A stretch of DNA of 64,000 bases from contig NC_014392.1 in the NCBI RefSeq assembly GCF_000145215.1, positions 1,310,001 to 1,374,000 of the forward strand, in the 5' to 3' direction. The notes beneath the pieces were generated by a model. It was not told where the DNA came from, did not search any database, and worked only from the letters and a program-made list of their open reading frames with translations. This document shows, piece after piece, positions 4,084 through 19,239 of the stretch. The position numbers and the translations under genes were made by a program. The first letter of the stretch is position 1, and every line of letters starts with the position of its first letter. The DNA comes from Caldicellulosiruptor obsidiansis OB47. GTDB taxonomy: Bacteria; Bacillota; Thermoanaerobacteria; Caldicellulosiruptorales; Caldicellulosiruptoraceae.

Positions 4084-5112
4084 ATGAAACACTTTGAGTT
4101 TGAAAATGATAAGCTCATTGTGCTTGACCAGAGAAAGCTGCCATTTGAAAAAGAGTATTTTGTTTGTAGCACATATCAGGATGTATATATAGCAATAAAG
4201 GATATGATTATAAGAGGAGCACCGCTTATTGGAATTGTTGCCGCATATGGAGTTGTGTTGGGATTTAGGGAGATAATTGAAAAGAACCTGGAGTCTAATA
4301 AAATTTATGAGATTATAAAATATCTTGCAAGCTCAAGACCCACAGCTGTGAATCTTTTCTGGGCACTTGAGAGAATGAAAAAGCTTTTTGAAGATGCAAG
4401 AAATTTTTCTCAAAATCAAATTTATAGTGTGCTGCTGGATGAGGCAAGGAAAATAGAAGATGAAGACAAAAGTATCAATAAAAAGATTGGTGAGCATGGA
4501 AATACACTTATAAAAGAAGGTGCAAATATCCTTACTCACTGTAATGCAGGAGCTTTAGCAACAGGCGGGTATGGAACTGCACTTGGTGTCATCCGTGAAG
4601 CTCACTTTACCGGCAAGAATATTCATGTTTATGTAGATGAGACCAGGCCGTATCTTCAGGGGGCAAGGCTCACAGCTTTTGAGCTTTCTGAAGATGGTAT
4701 TCCCAACACAGTTATCTGTGACAACATGGCAGGTTATCTTATGAAACTTGGGAAAATTGATTGCGTTATTGTTGGTGCAGATAGAATTGCTTTAAATGGA
4801 GATACAGCAAACAAGATTGGAACTTACTCTCTTTCTGTTTTAGCAAAGCACCATGGTATTCCTTTTTACATTGCAGCACCTATTTCAACTATTGATTTTA
4901 ATATAAAATCTGGACTGAAGATTCCTATTGAAGAGAGAAGCGAAGAGGAGATAAGATTTTTCAATGGTAAAAAGATTGTTCCGGATGAATCGAAGGTTTT
5001 TAATCCTGCATTTGATGTGACACCGGCTGAAAATATCACCGCTATAATTACAGAAAAAGGTGTTGTTTTTCCACCCTTTGAGGAGAATATCTCAAAACTC
5101 AAAGAAAAGTGA
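4084..5112 (+). CDS. mtnA: Methylthioribose-1-phosphate isomerase
   Basis: This 342-residue member of the eIF2B-alpha-like family converts methylthioribose-1-phosphate to methylthioribulose-1-phosphate. Conserved stretches include RGAPLIGIVAAYG, SSRPTAVNLFWAL, the catalytic-region cysteine in LTHCNAGALATGGYGTALG, the DETRPYLQGARLT motif and GADRIALNGDTANKIGT. It forms a two-gene operon with mtnP and ends in a strong terminator. Its last 55 or so bases and the terminator are duplicated in diverged form at 7273-7382. Confidence 0.94.
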   Translation: MKHFEFENDKLIVLDQRKLPFEKEYFVCSTYQDVYIAIKDMIIRGAPLIGIVAAYGVVLGFREIIEKNLESNKIYEIIKYLASSRPTAVNLFWALERMKKLFEDARNFSQNQIYSVLLDEARKIEDEDKSINKKIGEHGNTLIKEGANILTHCNAGALATGGYGTALGVIREAHFTGKNIHVYVDETRPYLQGARLTAFELSEDGIPNTVICDNMAGYLMKLGKIDCVIVGADRIALNGDTANKIGTYSLSVLAKHHGIPFYIAAPISTIDFNIKSGLKIPIEERSEEEIRFFNGKKIVPDESKVFNPAFDVTPAENITAIITEKGVVFPPFEENISKLKEK

Positions 5113-6018: not shown

Positions 6019-6126
6019 TTATTTATCCCTCACCTACCTCTTTGCTGAAATTTGTAAAAGTATATTCGTTTAAATGGAACTCTGGAAAGTAATAACTCAA
6101 TCATGCAATTATGGAGGATTAACCAA

Positions 6127-6753
6127 ATGCAAAAAATATTTCGTAATTCAATGGTAATATTTTCTTTAATTCTCATTGGATCATTGGTATTATTAAGTAT
6201 TAGTTTAAAAATCTCTCACATTAGGGCTGACACAATCTTAAATAAGCATAAGCTAGAAGACAATAGCTCCGAGAGAATTCATATTATAAAAAACAAAAAG
6301 AAATTTATAGCAGATATCATCTCAGTTTTACCCGTTGTTGAAGAAAAGAATATAAACAACTCAACTGTGGACAGCAACATAAGTAAAGTAAAAGCAAAAA
6401 GGCAAGTACATTATAAAATTATTAAAGCTGTGCTAAATGAAGCCAATCACAAAAGCATCCTTGGCCTTGCTTCAAACAAAGATATATATTCATTTGTATC
6501 TGAGAAAGTCCTAAAAATACTCTTTCCCAAACCTACACAAGATACTTATACCTGTTACTATAAGGTAGAACCTGCTGACCCCAAGCAAACCGTTATTTGG
6601 TACAAAAAAGGATATTTTTATTTTGTGTACTGCTTCACAGACTCTTACACCATAAATCCAGCTGACCCTTATGGTGATATAAAAAAAATGGTTCTCTTGG
6701 TTGAGAAAATTAAAAATAAATGGATCATAAGCGATTTTTCAAGCAATAACTGA
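6127..6753 (+). CDS. Small membrane-anchored or exported protein of unknown function
   Basis: The chosen ATG at 6127 has GGAGG 8 bases upstream; an in-frame ATG at 6103 has no ribosome site. The 208-residue product has a hydrophobic N-terminal segment (MVIFSLILIGSLVLLSI region), a basic linker, and a C-terminal domain of about 90 residues with alternating aromatic strands (CYYKVEPADP, GYFYFVYCF, KWIISDF) that looks like a small beta-rich extracellular domain. I do not recognise a family. It lies in the island between transposase fragments, downstream of the promoter at 5436-5470, though about 650 bases away with an inserted IS110 fragment between. Confidence 0.6.
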   Translation: MQKIFRNSMVIFSLILIGSLVLLSISLKISHIRADTILNKHKLEDNSSERIHIIKNKKKFIADIISVLPVVEEKNINNSTVDSNISKVKAKRQVHYKIIKAVLNEANHKSILGLASNKDIYSFVSEKVLKILFPKPTQDTYTCYYKVEPADPKQTVIWYKKGYFYFVYCFTDSYTINPADPYGDIKKMVLLVEKIKNKWIISDFSSNN

Positions 6754-6951: not shown

Positions 6952-7272
6952 CAATCATAATTATATCACTGAACTTTTGAAATCAAAAGATATTATCCTC
7001 TACCAAGTAGTAGAAAACGAAGATGAAGTAGAACTCTACATAAGTCAGGTGCAAAAATCTCATGAGTGTCCTAAATGTGGTAGTATCACAAGTAAGATAC
7101 ATGATTATCGTATTCAAAGAGTAAAAGATGTACCAACTGATGGGTAAGAAAACATATTTAGTTTTAAGAAAGCGAAGATATATTTGCAAAAAATGTGGAA
7201 AAAAGTTCTTTGAACACATAAATTTTTTAGGAAAGCATCAAAGAATGACAAATAGATTAGCAGCATACATTA
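6947..7272 (+). pseudogene. ISL3-family transposase, N-terminal fragment, frameshifted and truncated
   Basis: The GTG-started frame encodes ELLKSKDIILYQV and an N-terminal zinc ribbon (CPKCG near residue 43 and CKKCGKKF further on), typical of ISL3 transposases. One surplus G near 7141-7144 breaks the frame after VPTDG; the second frame continues with KKTYLVLRKRRY and RMTNRLAAYI. At about 7272 the sequence switches to the duplicated mtnA tail, so the catalytic DDE domain is gone. Confidence 0.8.
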
Positions 7273-7382
7273 AAGGTGTTATTTTTCCACCGTTTGAGGA
7301 GAATATTTCAAAATTTAAAGAAAAGTAAGTCTTTTAACGGGGTGTTATGAGAAATTGAATACCCCGTTCATTTTTTATACAT
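7273..7382 (+). repeat. mtnA 3' end plus terminator, diverged copy 2
   Basis: It encodes GVIFPPFEENIS and FKEK where mtnA has GVVFPPFEENIS and LKEK, with the same stop position and a decayed form of the same terminator. It is fused in frame to the transposase fragment. Base differences from copy 1 at mostly third positions suggest descent from a related mtnA gene rather than a very recent duplication. Confidence 0.8.
7337..7369 (+). terminator. Diverged copy of the mtnA terminator
   Basis: AACGGGG and CCCCGTT arms are retained with a longer, less paired interior, followed by a T-run. Confidence 0.55.
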
Positions 7383-7585: not shown

Positions 7586-8218
7586 TTATTTCAATTTAAA
7601 CCCAACTACTTTACACTCATAACAGTCATAACCTATATCTTCGTATCTATTTACTATTTCTCCTTTTGCGTTATATAAGATTAAGTCTTTTAGCTTTTTA
7701 TAACCGTCTACAATAATAATATATCCTTTGTCACCTTTTACATTTTCTATTAGTTTTGTCCCATTTTCAAATTCAAATACCATTTTAGTGTAATTAGTAG
7801 GCTTTCGTGCGCCTGTTGTTGGTATCCATGTAGAGGTATTTAAGTTACAAAAATAAATGCTTTTTCCTTTATATTTAACTCGATTTACTCCAAATCCCAT
7901 ACTCATTGCTGGATACCCAGCAGATGCATACCATAACGCTTTATTGTTTTCAACCAAACATAACAAATATTGGGGTGAATTATCGGTAGTCATATAAAAT
8001 AAAAATAGATACCAATTATCATGTTTTTTATATTTAAGTACATTAAAATTCTTATTTTTAACCATATAAAAAGCATCTGACAATGCTGAAACAGCTATTT
8101 TTTGAACTTTAGTGTATTCATCTTCTTTTTTTGTAAAATCCTTTCTTGTGCACCCGCTTATATTTAGCATCATTAGTGTGAATAATAAAATATATGGAAT
8201 AACTTTTTTTATCTTCAA
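7586..8218 (-). CDS. Lipoprotein of unknown function
   Basis: The 210-residue product begins with a lipoprotein signal peptide and lipobox (LNISGC, cysteine at about residue 23). The mature part has aromatic beta-strand-like stretches (YLFLFYMTTD, KSIYFCNLN, GYIIIVDGY), and I recognise no family. It is the last gene of the blaI-blaR1-amidase operon, about 160 bases after the amidase stop, with an inverted repeat between. It is probably a surface-anchored partner or effector of that operon. The gene reads intact. Confidence 0.65.
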   Translation of the reverse strand: MKIKKVIPYILLFTLMMLNISGCTRKDFTKKEDEYTKVQKIAVSALSDAFYMVKNKNFNVLKYKKHDNWYLFLFYMTTDNSPQYLLCLVENNKALWYASAGYPAMSMGFGVNRVKYKGKSIYFCNLNTSTWIPTTGARKPTNYTKMVFEFENGTKLIENVKGDKGYIIIVDGYKKLKDLILYNAKGEIVNRYEDIGYDCYECKVVGFKLK

Positions 8219-8377: not shown

Positions 8378-9541
8378 TTATTCTATTTCTCTAAAATAAT
8401 ATGGATTGAAAAATCTTTTTGCTCCTGTATATTCTTGATAATAACGATAGATATTCGGTGTATGTTGAGCAAATTTCAAGGTAACTTTATCTACGAGAAT
8501 TACTGTATGATCAAATCTTCCGTCATTAGAAAAATCAATTTGCATTATTCCACCATTATCTAATGAATTTATACTATCTACTACAACAACGCGTGGACCA
8601 GGTGTGTCAATAGATTTATAGCTTGTCATATAACTCCAGAAAGCTTCAACATTCTCCCAATTTCGTGAGCCTCCACCAGGACCAGCATACCACCCTTTTT
8701 CATATGAACCAGGAACCATCATCACCTTATTTAATATATCATTCGTAGTATCATTTGCTCCAAATCCGTACCATAAAACTTGAGATGCAAAGTTTGTGCA
8801 ATCTCCTCCTCCAGCGGTTGCATCATAAAACTTGGTATTACGGTTATATACGTATTTCTTTGCATATTCAACAGCTCTTGATGTACTATAATAATGATTT
8901 ACTGCTGGCAAACTAAGAATACCAACATTACTTTTCAATTCAACATCACTGAAGTTTTTATATACTTTCTTCGAATCTGGAGAAAATTCCTGTTCAATCA
9001 TTTCAGCTAATTCTTTCGGTTGAAATTCTCTTATTAATTTTTCTTTTGAAATTTCATAGAAACTTAGATCTTCATAATCATGTTCTGTAATTTTCCAGCT
9101 ATTTTCCATTTTTATTAACTTAAATATATTTTCGCCACCACAAATAAAAGGTAGATACGCATTCTGTCCATCTAATTTTATTTCTAATATGACGCTTGCT
9201 TGATTACCATTTATATCAATAGCTTTGTAATTGAACTCTAATGGAAATCTTCTCTTTTCAATGTAACAATAACCTTTTTGATAAATATACTTTCTTCTTG
9301 CTGTTAAATTTTTCAGAGCTATTACTTTGTTTTGATTTTGTATTTTAGTCATATCAAGGTAAGGAATTATATCTTTATATTCCATTTGTAAATATGCATC
9401 GTACTGAGTGTTGTAAAAAGATTCAATAATGTTTTTAATACTTTCTTCTTCAGTGTTTTTATAAAAATATGAATTTGCATAAGCAATGGAATTTGGTATT
9501 ATTAGAATTAAACATAACAAAAACAATACAATTTTTCTCAT
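8378..9541 (-). CDS. Secreted Amidase_6-type protein with a BlaR1-shared N-terminal domain
   Basis: The start at 9541 has AAAGGGG 9 bases upstream; an upstream in-frame ATG lies before that site. The 387-residue product has a signal peptide (residues 1-22), a domain at about 34-165 that closely matches the C-terminal sensor of the BlaR1-like protein encoded upstream, a linker, and a C-terminal putative amidase domain (about 215-385). The amidase domain shows GGGDCTNFASQ with the likely nucleophile Cys248 and a later FDHTVILV with His345, as in the Amidase_6/CHAP-like group that cuts amide bonds in peptidoglycan or peptides. It is the third gene of the operon. The cell wall is the probable target, by inference. 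Confidence 0.8.
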   Translation of the reverse strand: MRKIVLFLLCLILIIPNSIAYANSYFYKNTEEESIKNIIESFYNTQYDAYLQMEYKDIIPYLDMTKIQNQNKVIALKNLTARRKYIYQKGYCYIEKRRFPLEFNYKAIDINGNQASVILEIKLDGQNAYLPFICGGENIFKLIKMENSWKITEHDYEDLSFYEISKEKLIREFQPKELAEMIEQEFSPDSKKVYKNFSDVELKSNVGILSLPAVNHYYSTSRAVEYAKKYVYNRNTKFYDATAGGGDCTNFASQVLWYGFGANDTTNDILNKVMMVPGSYEKGWYAGPGGGSRNWENVEAFWSYMTSYKSIDTPGPRVVVVDSINSLDNGGIMQIDFSNDGRFDHTVILVDKVTLKFAQHTPNIYRYYQEYTGAKRFFNPYYFREIE

Positions 9542-9699
9542 TTGAGATATCCCCTTTCTTTTAGTTTTCATATGGTTTTCAGATTAAATTAAATAAATAA
9601 ATTTTTTGAAACTATTATCTTCTGTTTAATCAGGAACTATTGAAAATAAGAAGTACGACATAACTTTCCGCCTCCATTTTTCTAGTATCATACAAATTA

Positions 9700-11259
9700 T
9701 TACTTAATTCCAAAATCCCTATCTATTTGCTTTTTTATTTGTTCGTAATCAGGTTCTGGTAACTTTTGGTCAGTAGAGAATTCATAGAACATTAAGGCCC
9801 ATTTATCATAGATATGCTTTGTAATTTTCCATGTCCCCTCCTGCTTTTCTAATTCAAAAATATTTTCTCCATATGAAATAAATGATGGATATGCCTCTTT
9901 TAGTTTTATCTCTAAGTCAATAACTACTTTGGCTTTGTTGCCATAAAGCTCTATGTTCTTATAATGAAGTTCATATGGAAAATGTCTCTTCTCAACATAA
10001 CAGTACCTTTTTTCGTCTGTATATTTTCTTCTAAATACTAACATTTTTAATGCAACAACCTTATTATGATTTTGTATCTTTGACATATCCAAGTACGGTG
10101 TTATATCTATGTACTCCATTTGAAGATAAGCTTTGTACTGTGTTTCATAAAATCCTTCTATAGTTGATTTGATTGCTTCTATTTCATCGCTATCAAAAAT
10201 CAAAATATCTTTTGCCAAAATTTGAACAAACGCACTTAAGAATATTGTTGTTGATACTAACACCACAACAAAAACCTTTGCACCTTTGCTCATTTTCTTT
10301 GACTCCAAACTCATAATAAACCTAAATCTCTCAACAATGCTTTCTTTTCTACCTACCAGACCAAATGCCGCGTCTGCTCCACTGCCTATACTCACCAAAA
10401 GTGTGTTATAAAGTACCTCTGCATACCTTCTTTTGCCATCCTTCTTAAGCTTTCTTATTACTTCTTCGTCACATGAATATTCGCATTCTCTATTTAGCTT
10501 TAAAACAGCAAAGTATACTAAGGGGTTAAACCAATGAAGTGCATTTATTAATTTGCTTAGCCATTTAACAAGTACATCTTTTCTCTTGAAGTGTACAAGT
10601 TCATGTCTTATGATTAATCTTAAATCTTCTCTTACTATGTCCTTTGTAGGTATTACTAAGATCGGAGTAATTATTCCGATTAGCATAGGTGTTTGTATAA
10701 TATCACTTTCTAATATTTTTATTTTTTTAGGAATTTTTCTTAGATTGTAATACCTTTCAATCATTCTCCTGCAATATTCATTTGAACATTTTCGTGAACT
10801 TCTTATCAGTATCATTTTAAACCAAATATACCTTATCAAAAACCATGCAAAAAATACTATGGCCCCTACAAGCCAGACATAAACCATAACTTTTCCTAAT
10901 GTTTCAGGATTAAAATATCGAAGATTTTTAGAAGGCAGGGCAGTTAAAGCCCCACCTTGTGCTGTATTCCCTGTTAGTTGCAAGTTCAATGAACTACTGT
11001 TACTGAGTTTTAATGTCATATAACTGCTGTTGCCTAATATAATACTCTGATTTAGTACTCTACTATCTTTCTTACTAAATTTAATCAATACATTCCATGG
11101 AATGGTAAAACAAAAAAGCCCTATCATCCAAATATAATACCTTGCCCTTGCGCTCAAATGCTCTTTAAAGATTTTGCTCAAAATAGCAAATATCAAAACA
11201 GCTATGCTACCACCTACTGTCATTACTGAAATCCATTTGAATATAACTTCTATATTCAT
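9700..11259 (-). CDS. BlaR1-like M56 membrane metalloprotease with an unusual sensor domain
   Basis: The 519-residue protein has N-terminal membrane helices (about 10-30, 42-58 and 124-150) and the M56 zinc-protease motif HELVH at 219-223 with the downstream acidic helix NRECEYSCDE (257-266). A last membrane helix lies at about 328-348, followed by an exported C-terminal domain (356-519). In classical BlaR1/MecR1 that last domain is a penicillin-binding sensor; here there is no SxxK motif, and the domain instead matches the N-terminal domain of the neighbouring amidase. By family analogy, ligand binding outside triggers the protease, which ends repression by BlaI. It starts 7 bases after blaI; the last codons of blaI (GAGGAG) act as its ribosome site. 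Confidence 0.85.
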   Translation of the reverse strand: MNIEVIFKWISVMTVGGSIAVLIFAILSKIFKEHLSARARYYIWMIGLFCFTIPWNVLIKFSKKDSRVLNQSIILGNSSYMTLKLSNSSSLNLQLTGNTAQGGALTALPSKNLRYFNPETLGKVMVYVWLVGAIVFFAWFLIRYIWFKMILIRSSRKCSNEYCRRMIERYYNLRKIPKKIKILESDIIQTPMLIGIITPILVIPTKDIVREDLRLIIRHELVHFKRKDVLVKWLSKLINALHWFNPLVYFAVLKLNRECEYSCDEEVIRKLKKDGKRRYAEVLYNTLLVSIGSGADAAFGLVGRKESIVERFRFIMSLESKKMSKGAKVFVVVLVSTTIFLSAFVQILAKDILIFDSDEIEAIKSTIEGFYETQYKAYLQMEYIDITPYLDMSKIQNHNKVVALKMLVFRRKYTDEKRYCYVEKRHFPYELHYKNIELYGNKAKVVIDLEIKLKEAYPSFISYGENIFELEKQEGTWKITKHIYDKWALMFYEFSTDQKLPEPDYEQIKKQIDRDFGIK

Positions 11260-11266
11260 CTCATCT

Positions 11267-11647
11267 CTACTCCTCTTTTCCTAATAACTTCTTAATCTCC
11301 TCAAGCTCTTCTTTTTTTAAGTTTCCACTTTCAACTAATGCTGCTATTAAATCTTTTACAGAGCCATTAAATAGCTTATTCAATACCCTTGTTGTTTCTC
11401 TCTTTGCGTATTCCTCTTTGCTAATAGAAGGACTGTAGTAGTAAAGTTTATTTTTTTTCTCTTGCTTTATTACTTTCTTTTTTACAAGCCTGTCAATCAA
11501 GGTGTATATGGTTGACTTTTCCCATTTGATGTCTTTTTCTTTTAACCTTTGCACTATCTCTGGTGCACTCAACGCTTTCCCTTCTTCCCACAAAACTTTC
11601 ATAACCTCTAACTCAGCTTCTGATGGCTTTAATAAATCTTTGTTCAT
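11267..11647 (-). CDS. blaI: BlaI/MecI/CopY-family transcriptional repressor
   Basis: This 126-residue winged-helix repressor shows KPSEAELEVMKVLWEEG at the N-terminus, the recognition region KWEKSTIYTLIDRLVKK and a C-terminal dimer segment. The start at 11647 was chosen because AAAAGGAGAG lies 9 bases upstream; a longer frame would run into the operators. It binds DNA as a dimer and is normally inactivated through the M56 protease encoded next to it. It probably represses its own operon through the palindromes at 11662-11702. Pieces of duplicate blaI genes survive at 15297-15347 and 19099-19170. The gene symbol denotes the family; resistance to beta-lactams is not implied. Confidence 0.88.
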   Translation of the reverse strand: MNKDLLKPSEAELEVMKVLWEEGKALSAPEIVQRLKEKDIKWEKSTIYTLIDRLVKKKVIKQEKKNKLYYYSPSISKEEYAKRETTRVLNKLFNGSVKDLIAALVESGNLKKEELEEIKKLLGKEE

Positions 11648-11661
11648 TTGCTTCACTCTCC

Positions 11662-11715
11662 TTTTACAATTATGATTACACATATATTTTACAATAGTAA
11701 AAACCAATTTGTAAA
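11662..11715 (-). promoter_or_regulatory. blaI promoter with paired operators (copy A)
   Basis: On the minus strand TTTACA (11710-11715) and TAAAAT (11686-11691) are 18 bases apart. The palindrome with TTTTAC and GTAAAA arms (11687-11702) covers the -10, and a second, imperfect one (TTTTACAAT and GATTACA, 11662-11680) lies between -10 and the ribosome site. Two adjacent dyads are the usual BlaI/MecI arrangement. The same module recurs at 15379-15423 and 19188-19239. Confidence 0.65.
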
Positions 11716-11892: not shown

Positions 11893-13667
11893 TTATGGAT
11901 TAACTTTTAAAACTCTCTTACCGTTTATAGGATTATAATAATACTGCAAAAAATTATTGGTATCTATGATGCGAAGAAGACCATTAACAAAATCTACTTT
12001 ACAATTTTTAAAAGGCAATCTAATATTAACAAAAACTGTTCCAAATGCATCAACTATAGTGATAGTATCTTCTGAGGAGTAAAAGGCTGCAAGACCTCCA
12101 CTACCTCTACTACTTATCCAATTAAGAATCTTGGAATTTTTACGCTGAATCACCACTTTTTTTAAATTTGTAACGATAAATCTTTCATCGTTATTTGCCC
12201 ATACCTGATAAAATCCATTACCTAAATCAACGATATTTTTACCCAATGCTACGGTGTTTCCATTTGCATCAAGAAGCTTCTTGCTCTTCCAATCAGTAGT
12301 ATCTGTTACAATAAACCAGCCATCTTCTGTTAATGTTGATTGTGGAACTTTAAAATAAGCATCCGTCTTGGCATTATATCCTATGTCCTGTCCATTCTTA
12401 GATGACAGCAATCCACTTTCACCAATAAAATATCGCACATTATATTTCTTTTCATCTATCTTGAACAACCTTAATACTTTTCCTGTTTTATTTATCAAAT
12501 AATAATTCTCTTTCTTTTTTACAACTGCTTTCCCTCCATGAAATGCATATGCTCTATCATAGTAAAAATTTATCATCTTCTTGCCATCAAAAGAATAATA
12601 ACCATAAAGATTTGTTTTGTCATCTTTTATTGGCAACATATAATCACCTTGAGGATAAATAAGGACAGTACTTACCGCATCTGTGTCGGAGGACAGTTTT
12701 TTCTTTTGTGGCAATAAATAAATTCCATTGTCTACAATGGCCAACTTTCCATATAATCCTACAATACGTTGGAATTTAAAATAGATTTTACCAGACTTAT
12801 CAAAAACCATATACGAATCCTTAAGATAAAGGGGACTCTGAGCAGTAGCATACCCTTGCATATTAAACCCTGAGGGTTCATGAAATTTTGGCTGTATCCT
12901 CCAATTCCCTTTTGAATCTATATAACCCCAGAGAACATCAGAATTTGCTACATTATTTACAAAAGGATATGGATAGAAAGTTTCTTCTGAAATGGGATTG
13001 CCTCTTTCACCAATAGCAGCACTGTATAATCTTAGTATTGTTATAATTGCTTCTTCACGGGTCAGTTTTCTGTTTGGCTCAATACATCCGTTGCTATCAA
13101 TATTAAAAACACCTATTCGATACAGGTAATTTACTGCCTCTCTTGCCCATGAGAAAATGTAAATACCATCTGAGAAGTCTTGAGGAAAAATTTCATCCTC
13201 ATTAGGCCATTTCATTTGCAGTTTAAAATATTGTTTTATTTGTGGCATTCTTTTGGAAATAGTAACAATAGAAAAAAGCATTTTAGCAGATTCTTGTCTT
13301 GTAACAGTAGCATTTGGATAGAACATTCCTTTTTCTTTAGCATCTACTATTCCGAGAGTTGCTAATACTCTTACTTCATGGTCATCGGTATCAGAAAAAG
13401 TTAATTGAGAACTTGACTTTGATATTTGGTTAAGGTCAAGACCAAAAGAACGTAATAGGCATCCTATCAGGTGACAAAATTCGAGCCGAGTTATGGGTTT
13501 TTGGTAGTTTCCTCTTAACTCTTCCGGAACAAGTTCTAAGGATATTGCTCTGACAACTTCGTTTTGTGTTACATTATAATTAGAATTTGTAGCTTCAGTA
13601 CAAAAGATTAAAAAACAAAAATAGCTAATATTACGGTAGTTTTTATGGTTTTAATTTTCTTCATCAT
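11893..13667 (-). pseudogene. S-layer-homology plus WG-repeat surface protein, frameshifted in its signal peptide
   Basis: An ATG at 13667 with GGAAGGGG upstream starts a signal peptide (MMKKIKTIKTTVILAI), but the frame hits TAA within the hydrophobic core. One extra T in the T6 run (13610-13615) would continue it without further breaks to 11893, giving about 590 residues. As it stands, an internal start such as the methionine at 13326 would give about 477 residues without export signal. The restored protein has SLH domains (SRxEFxxLI- and TRQESAKML-type motifs, and LTREEAIITILRL) that anchor to cell-wall polymer. WG-type repeats follow (WGYIDSKGNWRIQPKF, YGYYSFDGKKMI). It is the second gene after promoter copy B. 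Confidence 0.75.
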
Positions 13668-14870: not shown

Positions 14871-15290
14871 TTACTTAATTCCAAAATCCCTATCTATTTG
14901 CTTTTTTATTTGTTCGTAATCAGGTTCTGGTAACTTTTGGTCAGTAGAAAATTCATAGAACATTAAGGTCCATTTATCATAGATATGCTTTGTTATTTTC
15001 CATGTCCCCTCCTGCTTTTCTAATTCAAAAATATTTTCTCCATATGAAATAAATGATGGATATGCCTCTTTTAGTTTTATCTCTAAGTCAATAACTACTT
15101 TGGCTTTATTGCCATAAAGCTCTATGTTCTTATAATGAAGTTCATATGGAAAATGTCTCTTCTCAACATAACAGTACCTTTTTTCGTCTGTATATTTTCT
15201 TCTAAATACTAACATTTTTAATGCAACAACCTTATTATGATTTTGTATCTTTGACATATCCAAGTACGGTGTTATATCTATATACTCCAT
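14871..15290 (-). pseudogene. Truncated BlaR1-like sensor domain (copy B)
   Basis: The 139-residue frame equals the last 139 residues of the intact BlaR1-like protein (MEYIDITPYLDM to DFGIK) with about one difference. Membrane helices and the HELVH protease motif are missing. Its ATG is an internal methionine codon of the parent gene and has no good ribosome site, so it is most likely not translated. Confidence 0.85.
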
Positions 15291-15378: not shown

Positions 15379-15423
15379 GTGATTACATAATATATTTTAC
15401 AATAGTAAAAAGTATTTTGTAAA
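15379..15423 (-). promoter_or_regulatory. blaI-type promoter with operators (copy B)
   Basis: TTTACA (15418-15423), an 18-base spacer and TAAAAT (15394-15399) are kept exactly. The TTTTAC/GTAAAA palindrome and the proximal TTACAATTGTGATTACA dyad also remain. With blaI and blaR1 deleted, transcription would pass directly into the genes at 14718 and 13667. Confidence 0.6.
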
Positions 15424-19187: not shown

Positions 19188-19239
19188 TTACAATTGTAAT
19201 TACATATATATTTTACAATAGTAAAAACTAATTTGTAAA
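19188..19239 (-). promoter_or_regulatory. blaI-type promoter with operators (copy C)
   Basis: TTTACA (19234-19239) and TAAAAT (19210-19215) with an 18-base spacer match copies A and B. The proximal dyad here is the clean TTACAATTGTAATTACA. Confidence 0.6.

Follow-up and report, generated by a model that had tools for sequence, protein, structure and literature searches.

A BlaR1-type receptor whose sensor resembles the accessory domain of the Amidase_6 protein encoded beside it

To our knowledge, BlaR1 has been studied almost only as a beta-lactam sensor, and most M56/BlaI pairs carry ectodomains of other kinds. Once a ligand has bound outside the cell, BlaR1 cleaves BlaI directly, and the BlaR1 sensor is a relative of class D beta-lactamases (PMC9834060); a peptidoglycan dipeptide is another signal to which BlaI can respond (PMC3305447). 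Relatedness of a sensor to the enzyme it controls is likewise known for RsgI6, whose GH10 module is 57% identical to Xyn10D (PMC4711584). An M23-M56 architecture also appears in the literature, though M56 has no proven part in cleaving peptidoglycan (PMC9662197). No activity has been determined for the Amidase_6 members of Bacillus subtilis, which include the uncharacterised YjcM, and YhbB and YjcM are listed as candidate wall hydrolases (PMC10653849). Analysis of 64,000 nucleotides of Caldicellulosiruptor obsidiansis OB47 (hereafter the window) points, with fair but not high confidence, to a BlaR1-type operon whose sensor is a captured Amidase_6 accessory domain, and which senses what that domain binds in the amidase and induces the amidase operon. 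The ligand and the regulation we infer from domain identity, operon anatomy, conservation, selection, operator dyads and the native home of the domain, all of them read from sequence. Recurrence of sensor-enzyme relatedness across M56 receptors was not encountered in the open-access literature searched, the BlaR1 and RsgI6 cases being already known.

The features of the locus are collected in Table 1. The receptor matches the Pfam family Peptidase_M56 at 188 bits and has HELVH at residues 219-223 and four main hydrophobic segments (residues 10-28, 43-61, 124-142 and 329-347). No second protein of the 2.53-Mb genome passes the M56 cut-off, and HELVH is retained in every full-length receptor checked in the genus. 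A BlaI repressor, an M56 protease with HExxH and a BlaI-like operator are all that links this arrangement to a conventional beta-lactam sensor operon, however, and such an operon is extremely improbable here: a motif search found neither SxxK nor K[ST]G in the M56 tail, Pfam returned no Transpeptidase match in the receptor, with the BlaR1 equivalog model NF000326 the receptor scores 138 bits, short of the 400-bit cut-off, and no beta-lactamase or PBP was recognised among the cluster genes. The missing motifs and the low equivalog score led to the rejection of beta-lactam sensing. The earlier note on this DNA had described a BlaR1-like M56 protease lacking an SxxK sensor, and that description stands; its further claim, that the circuit is distinct from beta-lactam sensing, holds for the ligand and fails for the building principle, since the classical BlaR1 sensor is also beta-lactamase-related.

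Table 1. Features of the operon and of its decayed copies, in window coordinates.
Feature	Position	Strand	Basis
Putative lipoprotein, ISGC lipobox, 210 aa, last gene of the conserved cluster	7586..8218	-	Lipobox; genus-restricted
Secreted Amidase_6 protein, 397 aa	8378..9571	-	PF12671, 87.9 bits, cut-off 23.2
Amidase_6 catalytic domain, residues 228-378	8438..8890	-	Pfam
DOM, enzyme copy, NTF2-like (predicted), amidase residues 37-197	8981..9463	-	BLASTP; model; dN/dS 0.167 (28 pairs, genus)
M56 (BlaR1-type) membrane metalloprotease, 519 aa, 7 nt after blaI	9700..11259	-	PF05569, E 2.2e-55
DOM, receptor copy, exported, NTF2-like (predicted), M56 residues 355-519	9703..10197	-	BLASTP; model; dN/dS 0.149 (55 pairs, genus)
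BlaI-family repressor, 126 aa from conserved ATG	11267..11647	-	PF03965, E 1.4e-32; Penicillinase_R, 113 bits
Predicted BlaI operator O2, genus consensus TTACAATTGTAA, window copy TCATAATTGTAA	11664..11675	-	Phylogenetic footprint
Predicted BlaI operator O1 TTTTACTATTGTAAAA, dyad TTAC-N4-GTAA	11687..11702	-	Phylogenetic footprint
-35 element TTTACA of the blaI promoter	11710..11715	-	Invariant in 13 aligned genus upstream regions; promoter scan 10/12
Orphan DOM fragment, 99% identical to receptor copy	14871..15290	-	Remnant of second blaI-M56 copy
Second exact operator core, before broken blaI start and DOM fragment	15391..15409	-	Genome search
Third exact operator core, before another broken blaI start	19207..19225	-	Genome search

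The central observation is that the exported part of the receptor and the N-terminal part of the neighbouring amidase are the same domain, here called DOM, as had been proposed from the sequence alone. BLASTP aligns M56 residues 355-516 with amidase residues 37-196, with 83 of 162 positions identical (51%, E 3e-49), and the count of 30 identities in 39 first given for one stretch (FYETQYKAYLQMEYIDITPYLDMSKIQNHNKVVALKMLV in one copy, FYNTQYDAYLQMEYKDIIPYLDMTKIQNQNKVIALKNLT in the other) is exact; only the limits then set for the amidase domain, about 34-165, have to be revised, its end reaching about 196. Pfam recognises the M56 and Amidase_6 parts of the two proteins and nothing on DOM. Assignment to a named family was rejected, as nothing lies above cut-off in Pfam or NCBIfam, a PDB sequence search with DOM gave no match, and the profile matches to SnoaL_4 and Lumazine_bd_2 are weak. 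Both copies are under purifying selection (dN/dS about 0.15). In a tree they form separate clades that stay apart at about 50% identity, and recent gene conversion between them is therefore rejected. At positions invariant within the clades, the two share 79% and then 71% of residues across the first two segments; two later stretches reach 41% and 30%. Since the identity lies mostly in the first half of DOM, the copies could have come to differ in ligand specificity, which counts against the reading of a shared target.

Structure prediction for the two copies, a comparison that the earlier note had proposed, gives the same order of secondary structure in each: AlphaFold models (mean pLDDT 76 and 70) have a long helix, a further helix, four strands in two hairpins and C-terminal helices. 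The Foldseek neighbours are NTF2-like, the best being 3blz (E 2.9e-3, probability 1.00, for the model of pLDDT 76), and the NTF2 domain of RsgI9, from the S1C-NTF2 structure, is also among the PDB neighbours; both copies are thus predicted to share an NTF2-like fold. For the full amidase model, the top structural match is chain A of the B. subtilis YjcM-YjcN entry (E 6.8e-9), itself an integrative complex model. In hhalign, 122 columns of DOM align with the N-terminal domain that ordinary Amidase_6 proteins carry (score 35.9, E 2.6e-5), where the best of 30 shuffles scores 17.1. It is a rare domain, present in 11 of 399 genomes of the phylum, and the proteins that carry it beyond the genus are Amidase_6 or standalone ones (Desulfosporosinus, Thermoanaerobacter, Carboxydothermus). 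Because these occurrences are mainly with Amidase_6, the alternative first raised, a generic domain with no linkage to M56 or amidase proteins, does not hold. DOM is thus a divergent form of the Amidase_6 accessory domain and belongs originally at the N-terminus of wall hydrolases of that family. Outside the genus, the M56-DOM fusion was found only in a Thermoanaerobacter MAG, as a remnant that shares 73% identity with M56 residues 318-519 and precedes an amidase fragment. Given this home and the confinement of the fusion, the M56 copy is taken to be the derived one, captured by the receptor.

The blaI gene lies upstream of the M56 gene, beyond the region covered by the earlier note; its start was set by conservation of the upstream region, the ORF list beginning at a TTG at 11707. 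A footprint over 13 upstream regions, compared across the genus, yields the two operators: O1 overlaps a -10 box, TAAAAT, at 11686-11691, and the O2 dyad sits just before the ribosome site, so that two predicted BlaI-type dyads lie over the operon promoter. The amidase has a hydrophobic signal segment at residues 14-32, a candidate catalytic Cys258 in DCTNF and DHT at 354; the 2.53-Mb genome encodes no other complete Amidase_6 protein, and the Cys is kept in every intact amidase of the genus. At rest, BlaI would occupy the two TTAC-N4-GTAA dyads and keep the operon shut. When the receptor ectodomain meets a wall component, or a wall-bound partner, that is also bound by the accessory domain of the amidase, the HELVH protease would be switched on and BlaI cut, amidase and lipoprotein would be made, and the supply of enzyme would then track the supply of its target. 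No operator dyad was found in the 128-nt gap between the M56 and amidase genes; co-transcription is therefore an assumption of this mechanism, and a point against it.

Several observations concern the surroundings of these genes. Conservation of the M56-amidase gap (9572-9699) within the genus is striking. Inside it is a mini-ORF, GGAGGCG...ATG, of some 10 codons, which is not in the same frame in all species; a second copy comes after the orphan DOM fragment. Just upstream of blaI, positions 11893-13326 encode a WG-repeat protein with an S-layer homology domain, a 590-aa form of which lies between the two blaI-M56 copies of genome G004. The end of an mtnA-like gene (FPPFEENISKLKEK) recurs at the end of an ISL3-type transposase fragment (4084-5112 and 7128-7328), which suggests a rearrangement, and a small + strand gene between these repeats (6103-6753) is conserved.

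Among 12 genomes sampled from the genus, 10 encode an M56-DOM receptor. The pairing of receptor and amidase that had been postulated is conserved: 8 of the 10 have an intact DOM-amidase, and no genome of the genus has one without a DOM receptor. The cluster BlaI, M56-DOM, DOM-Amidase_6 and lipoprotein is kept in G000, G001, G002, G004, G005, G007, G008 and G010, and G004 retains two intact M56-DOM copies, only one of which comes with an amidase. G011 has no M56. In G003 the amidase is missing, and in G009 it is a stump without DOM in which the Cys has become Tyr; both receptors are intact, so the receptor can persist without a working amidase, and this too counts against the favoured reading. 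The constant companion of the fused receptor is not the amidase but the lipoprotein, found in all 10 genomes. In G004, a second DOM/Amidase_6/lipoprotein set follows genes for an ECF sigma factor and for a DUF4367 membrane protein (L258 41-4296); its DOM was recognised at E about 2e-9 in a small search, its lipoprotein is 41% identical, and its amidase is split between reading frames. The same cargo is thus paired with two unrelated transmembrane regulators, as expected of regulated cargo.

These patterns bear on the main rival to a shared wall target, namely that DOM is a protein-protein module, its copies in receptor and amidase attaching either to one shared protein, such as the lipoprotein, or to one another. 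Titration of the receptor by the secreted enzyme or by its partner would then give homeostatic feedback on enzyme level. NTF2-like domains often dimerise. The lipoprotein accompanies the DOM receptor even in the two genomes without a working amidase, its paralog in G004 adjoins a DOM-Amidase_6 locus away from BlaI and M56, and the top structural neighbour of the amidase is a model of YjcM in complex with YjcN; yet a search for relatives of the lipoprotein found none outside the genus, where DOM-Amidase_6 proteins do occur, and no solved structural relative was found. On this balance the rival is considered unlikely, and recognition of a common wall target is preferred.

The window also records an unstable history. 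The fragment at 14871-15290, a third, partial DOM copy absent from the earlier note, has its own promoter/operator and a broken blaI start just upstream, and the exact operator core occurs three times in the genome, always in the neighbourhood of the operon. A multi-target regulon was rejected as the meaning of these cores, the two upstream ones being remnants of decayed blaI. The window is therefore interpreted as holding one intact and two decayed blaI-M56 copies, a tandem array in decay, whose instability is counted against the favoured reading. In genome G006, the M56 ortholog has a 75% identical core, followed by the first DOM residues and then by a 310-residue propeller (L134 6783-8816) whose counterpart is residues 37-344 of a protein of 574 aa; in other members of the genus, the gene for this protein adjoins the same operon. 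The C-terminus of that protein has NlpC/P60-like motifs (DCSGFVSRCW, GHVRLFY) and a weak Pfam match, so that in G006, as with DOM, what was captured would be an accessory domain, here from a secreted protein that is putatively a wall hydrolase. An IS110 element separates blaI from the M56 gene at this locus, and the amidase has been lost; because of the element, the receptor may be a decay product, and G006 was set aside as proof of adaptive sensor swapping.

Such instability raises the alternative that the receptor DOM is a recombination by-product of the array, which folds or anchors the protein and senses nothing related to the amidase. The decayed copies, the G006 junction within DOM beside an IS110 element, and the two G004 receptors, only one of them with an amidase, speak for it, but a by-product is hard to reconcile with a receptor DOM that has a dN/dS of 0.149 over 55 pairs and residues invariant across species, with a receptor conserved in 10 of 12 genomes, or with other M56 receptors that independently match neighbouring genes, and this alternative is regarded as improbable. 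Recombination nonetheless has a place in the captured-sensor reading: exchange within an array of tandem blaI-M56 copies next to the enzyme gene probably created the fusion, and other M56 receptors seem to have come about independently in the same way.

The wider survey took in 123 M56 ectodomains, each 100 aa or longer, from loci of the same phylum, a match being to a non-M56 product of the same locus with E<1e-3 over at least 50 aa. Seven of the 123 match a neighbour in their own locus, against 0.94 expected from other loci (Poisson about 6e-5); six matches remain without the window (about 4e-4), and four when the classical pair and the second NAGPA locus are also removed (about 0.015). Chance sharing of a common domain by neighbours was rejected by shuffled pairing of ectodomains and loci. 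Two of the matching receptors, related to each other, are M56-NAGPA proteins encoded 10-11 nt away from the gene of a NAGPA phosphodiester glycosidase (identity 56-62%), and they form with it a candidate receptor/enzyme pair for a wall glycopolymer; the order is BlaI, M56::NAGPA and then the separate NAGPA gene (L149 6006-8829, L190 5233-8070). At L184, a classical BlaR1 with a Transpeptidase-fold sensor adjoins a gene for a class-D-like beta-lactamase of the same fold (38%), and three more matches (65%, 39% and 25%) involve unnamed domains. A Pfam census of 117 ectodomains found DUF4825 to be the commonest domain (20) and wall-hydrolase domains in 9, comprising M23 in five, Amidase_3 in three and SpoIIP in one; all five M23 ectodomains (L141, L219, L229, L232, L234) have an intact HxGxD...HxH, and the proteins that carry them may be receptors or enzymes.

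Together these matches suggest that M56 receptors have repeatedly been built from enzymes encoded beside them, and no report of M56 ectodomains copied from neighbours was found in the open-access literature. It is possible, and proposed here tentatively, that M56/BlaI receptors as a class copy a domain of the secreted enzyme they control, that the binding site is common by descent, and that a swap of ectodomain retargets the circuit. The BlaR1/beta-lactamase, phosphodiester glycosidase and Amidase_6 operons would be instances, and the G006 propeller a swap. If an ectodomain is a copy of a domain of the regulated enzyme, the neighbouring enzyme tells what the receptor senses; dozens of unexplained receptors would become testable wall sensors, and the origin of the penicillin sensor would be explicable. 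The present locus offers a compact test case, with natural variants in which the domain is present, the domain is swapped or the amidase is lost.

Several described systems come close to this operon. With BlaR1/MecR1-BlaI/MecI it shares the blaI-M56 pair, the HExxH membrane protease, the C-terminal extracellular sensor, the dyads over the promoter and a sensor homologous to an enzyme, in their case class D beta-lactamases (PMC9834060); it differs in an ectodomain that is a predicted NTF2-like accessory domain without SxxK, and in an effector that is a putative wall amidase with a lipoprotein. The SigI-RsgI biomass sensors of Clostridium thermocellum are alike in that the extracellular module of the regulator is of the same kind as in the controlled enzymes. 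There, however, the sigma factor system relies on an anti-sigma factor freed by intramembrane proteolysis, and the substrate is plant polysaccharide, whereas here M56 is expected to cleave BlaI, with the cell's own wall as the probable target. In the same organism, BlaI_0696 and BlaI_1845 stand with BlaR1-annotated genes in small self-regulated operons with paired inverted-repeat operators, for which the parts of the source consulted report no common sensor/effector domain and assume a beta-lactam as the sensed compound (PMC8457756). The uncharacterised YhbB and YjcM of B. subtilis have the same layout of N-domain and catalytic domain as the amidase, without a link to M56. Finally, M56 proteins with M23, Amidase_3 or SpoIIP ectodomains also carry a domain of a peptidoglycan-hydrolase family, but in these the receptor holds the catalytic domain itself, whereas in the operon described here the accessory domain alone appears to have been captured.
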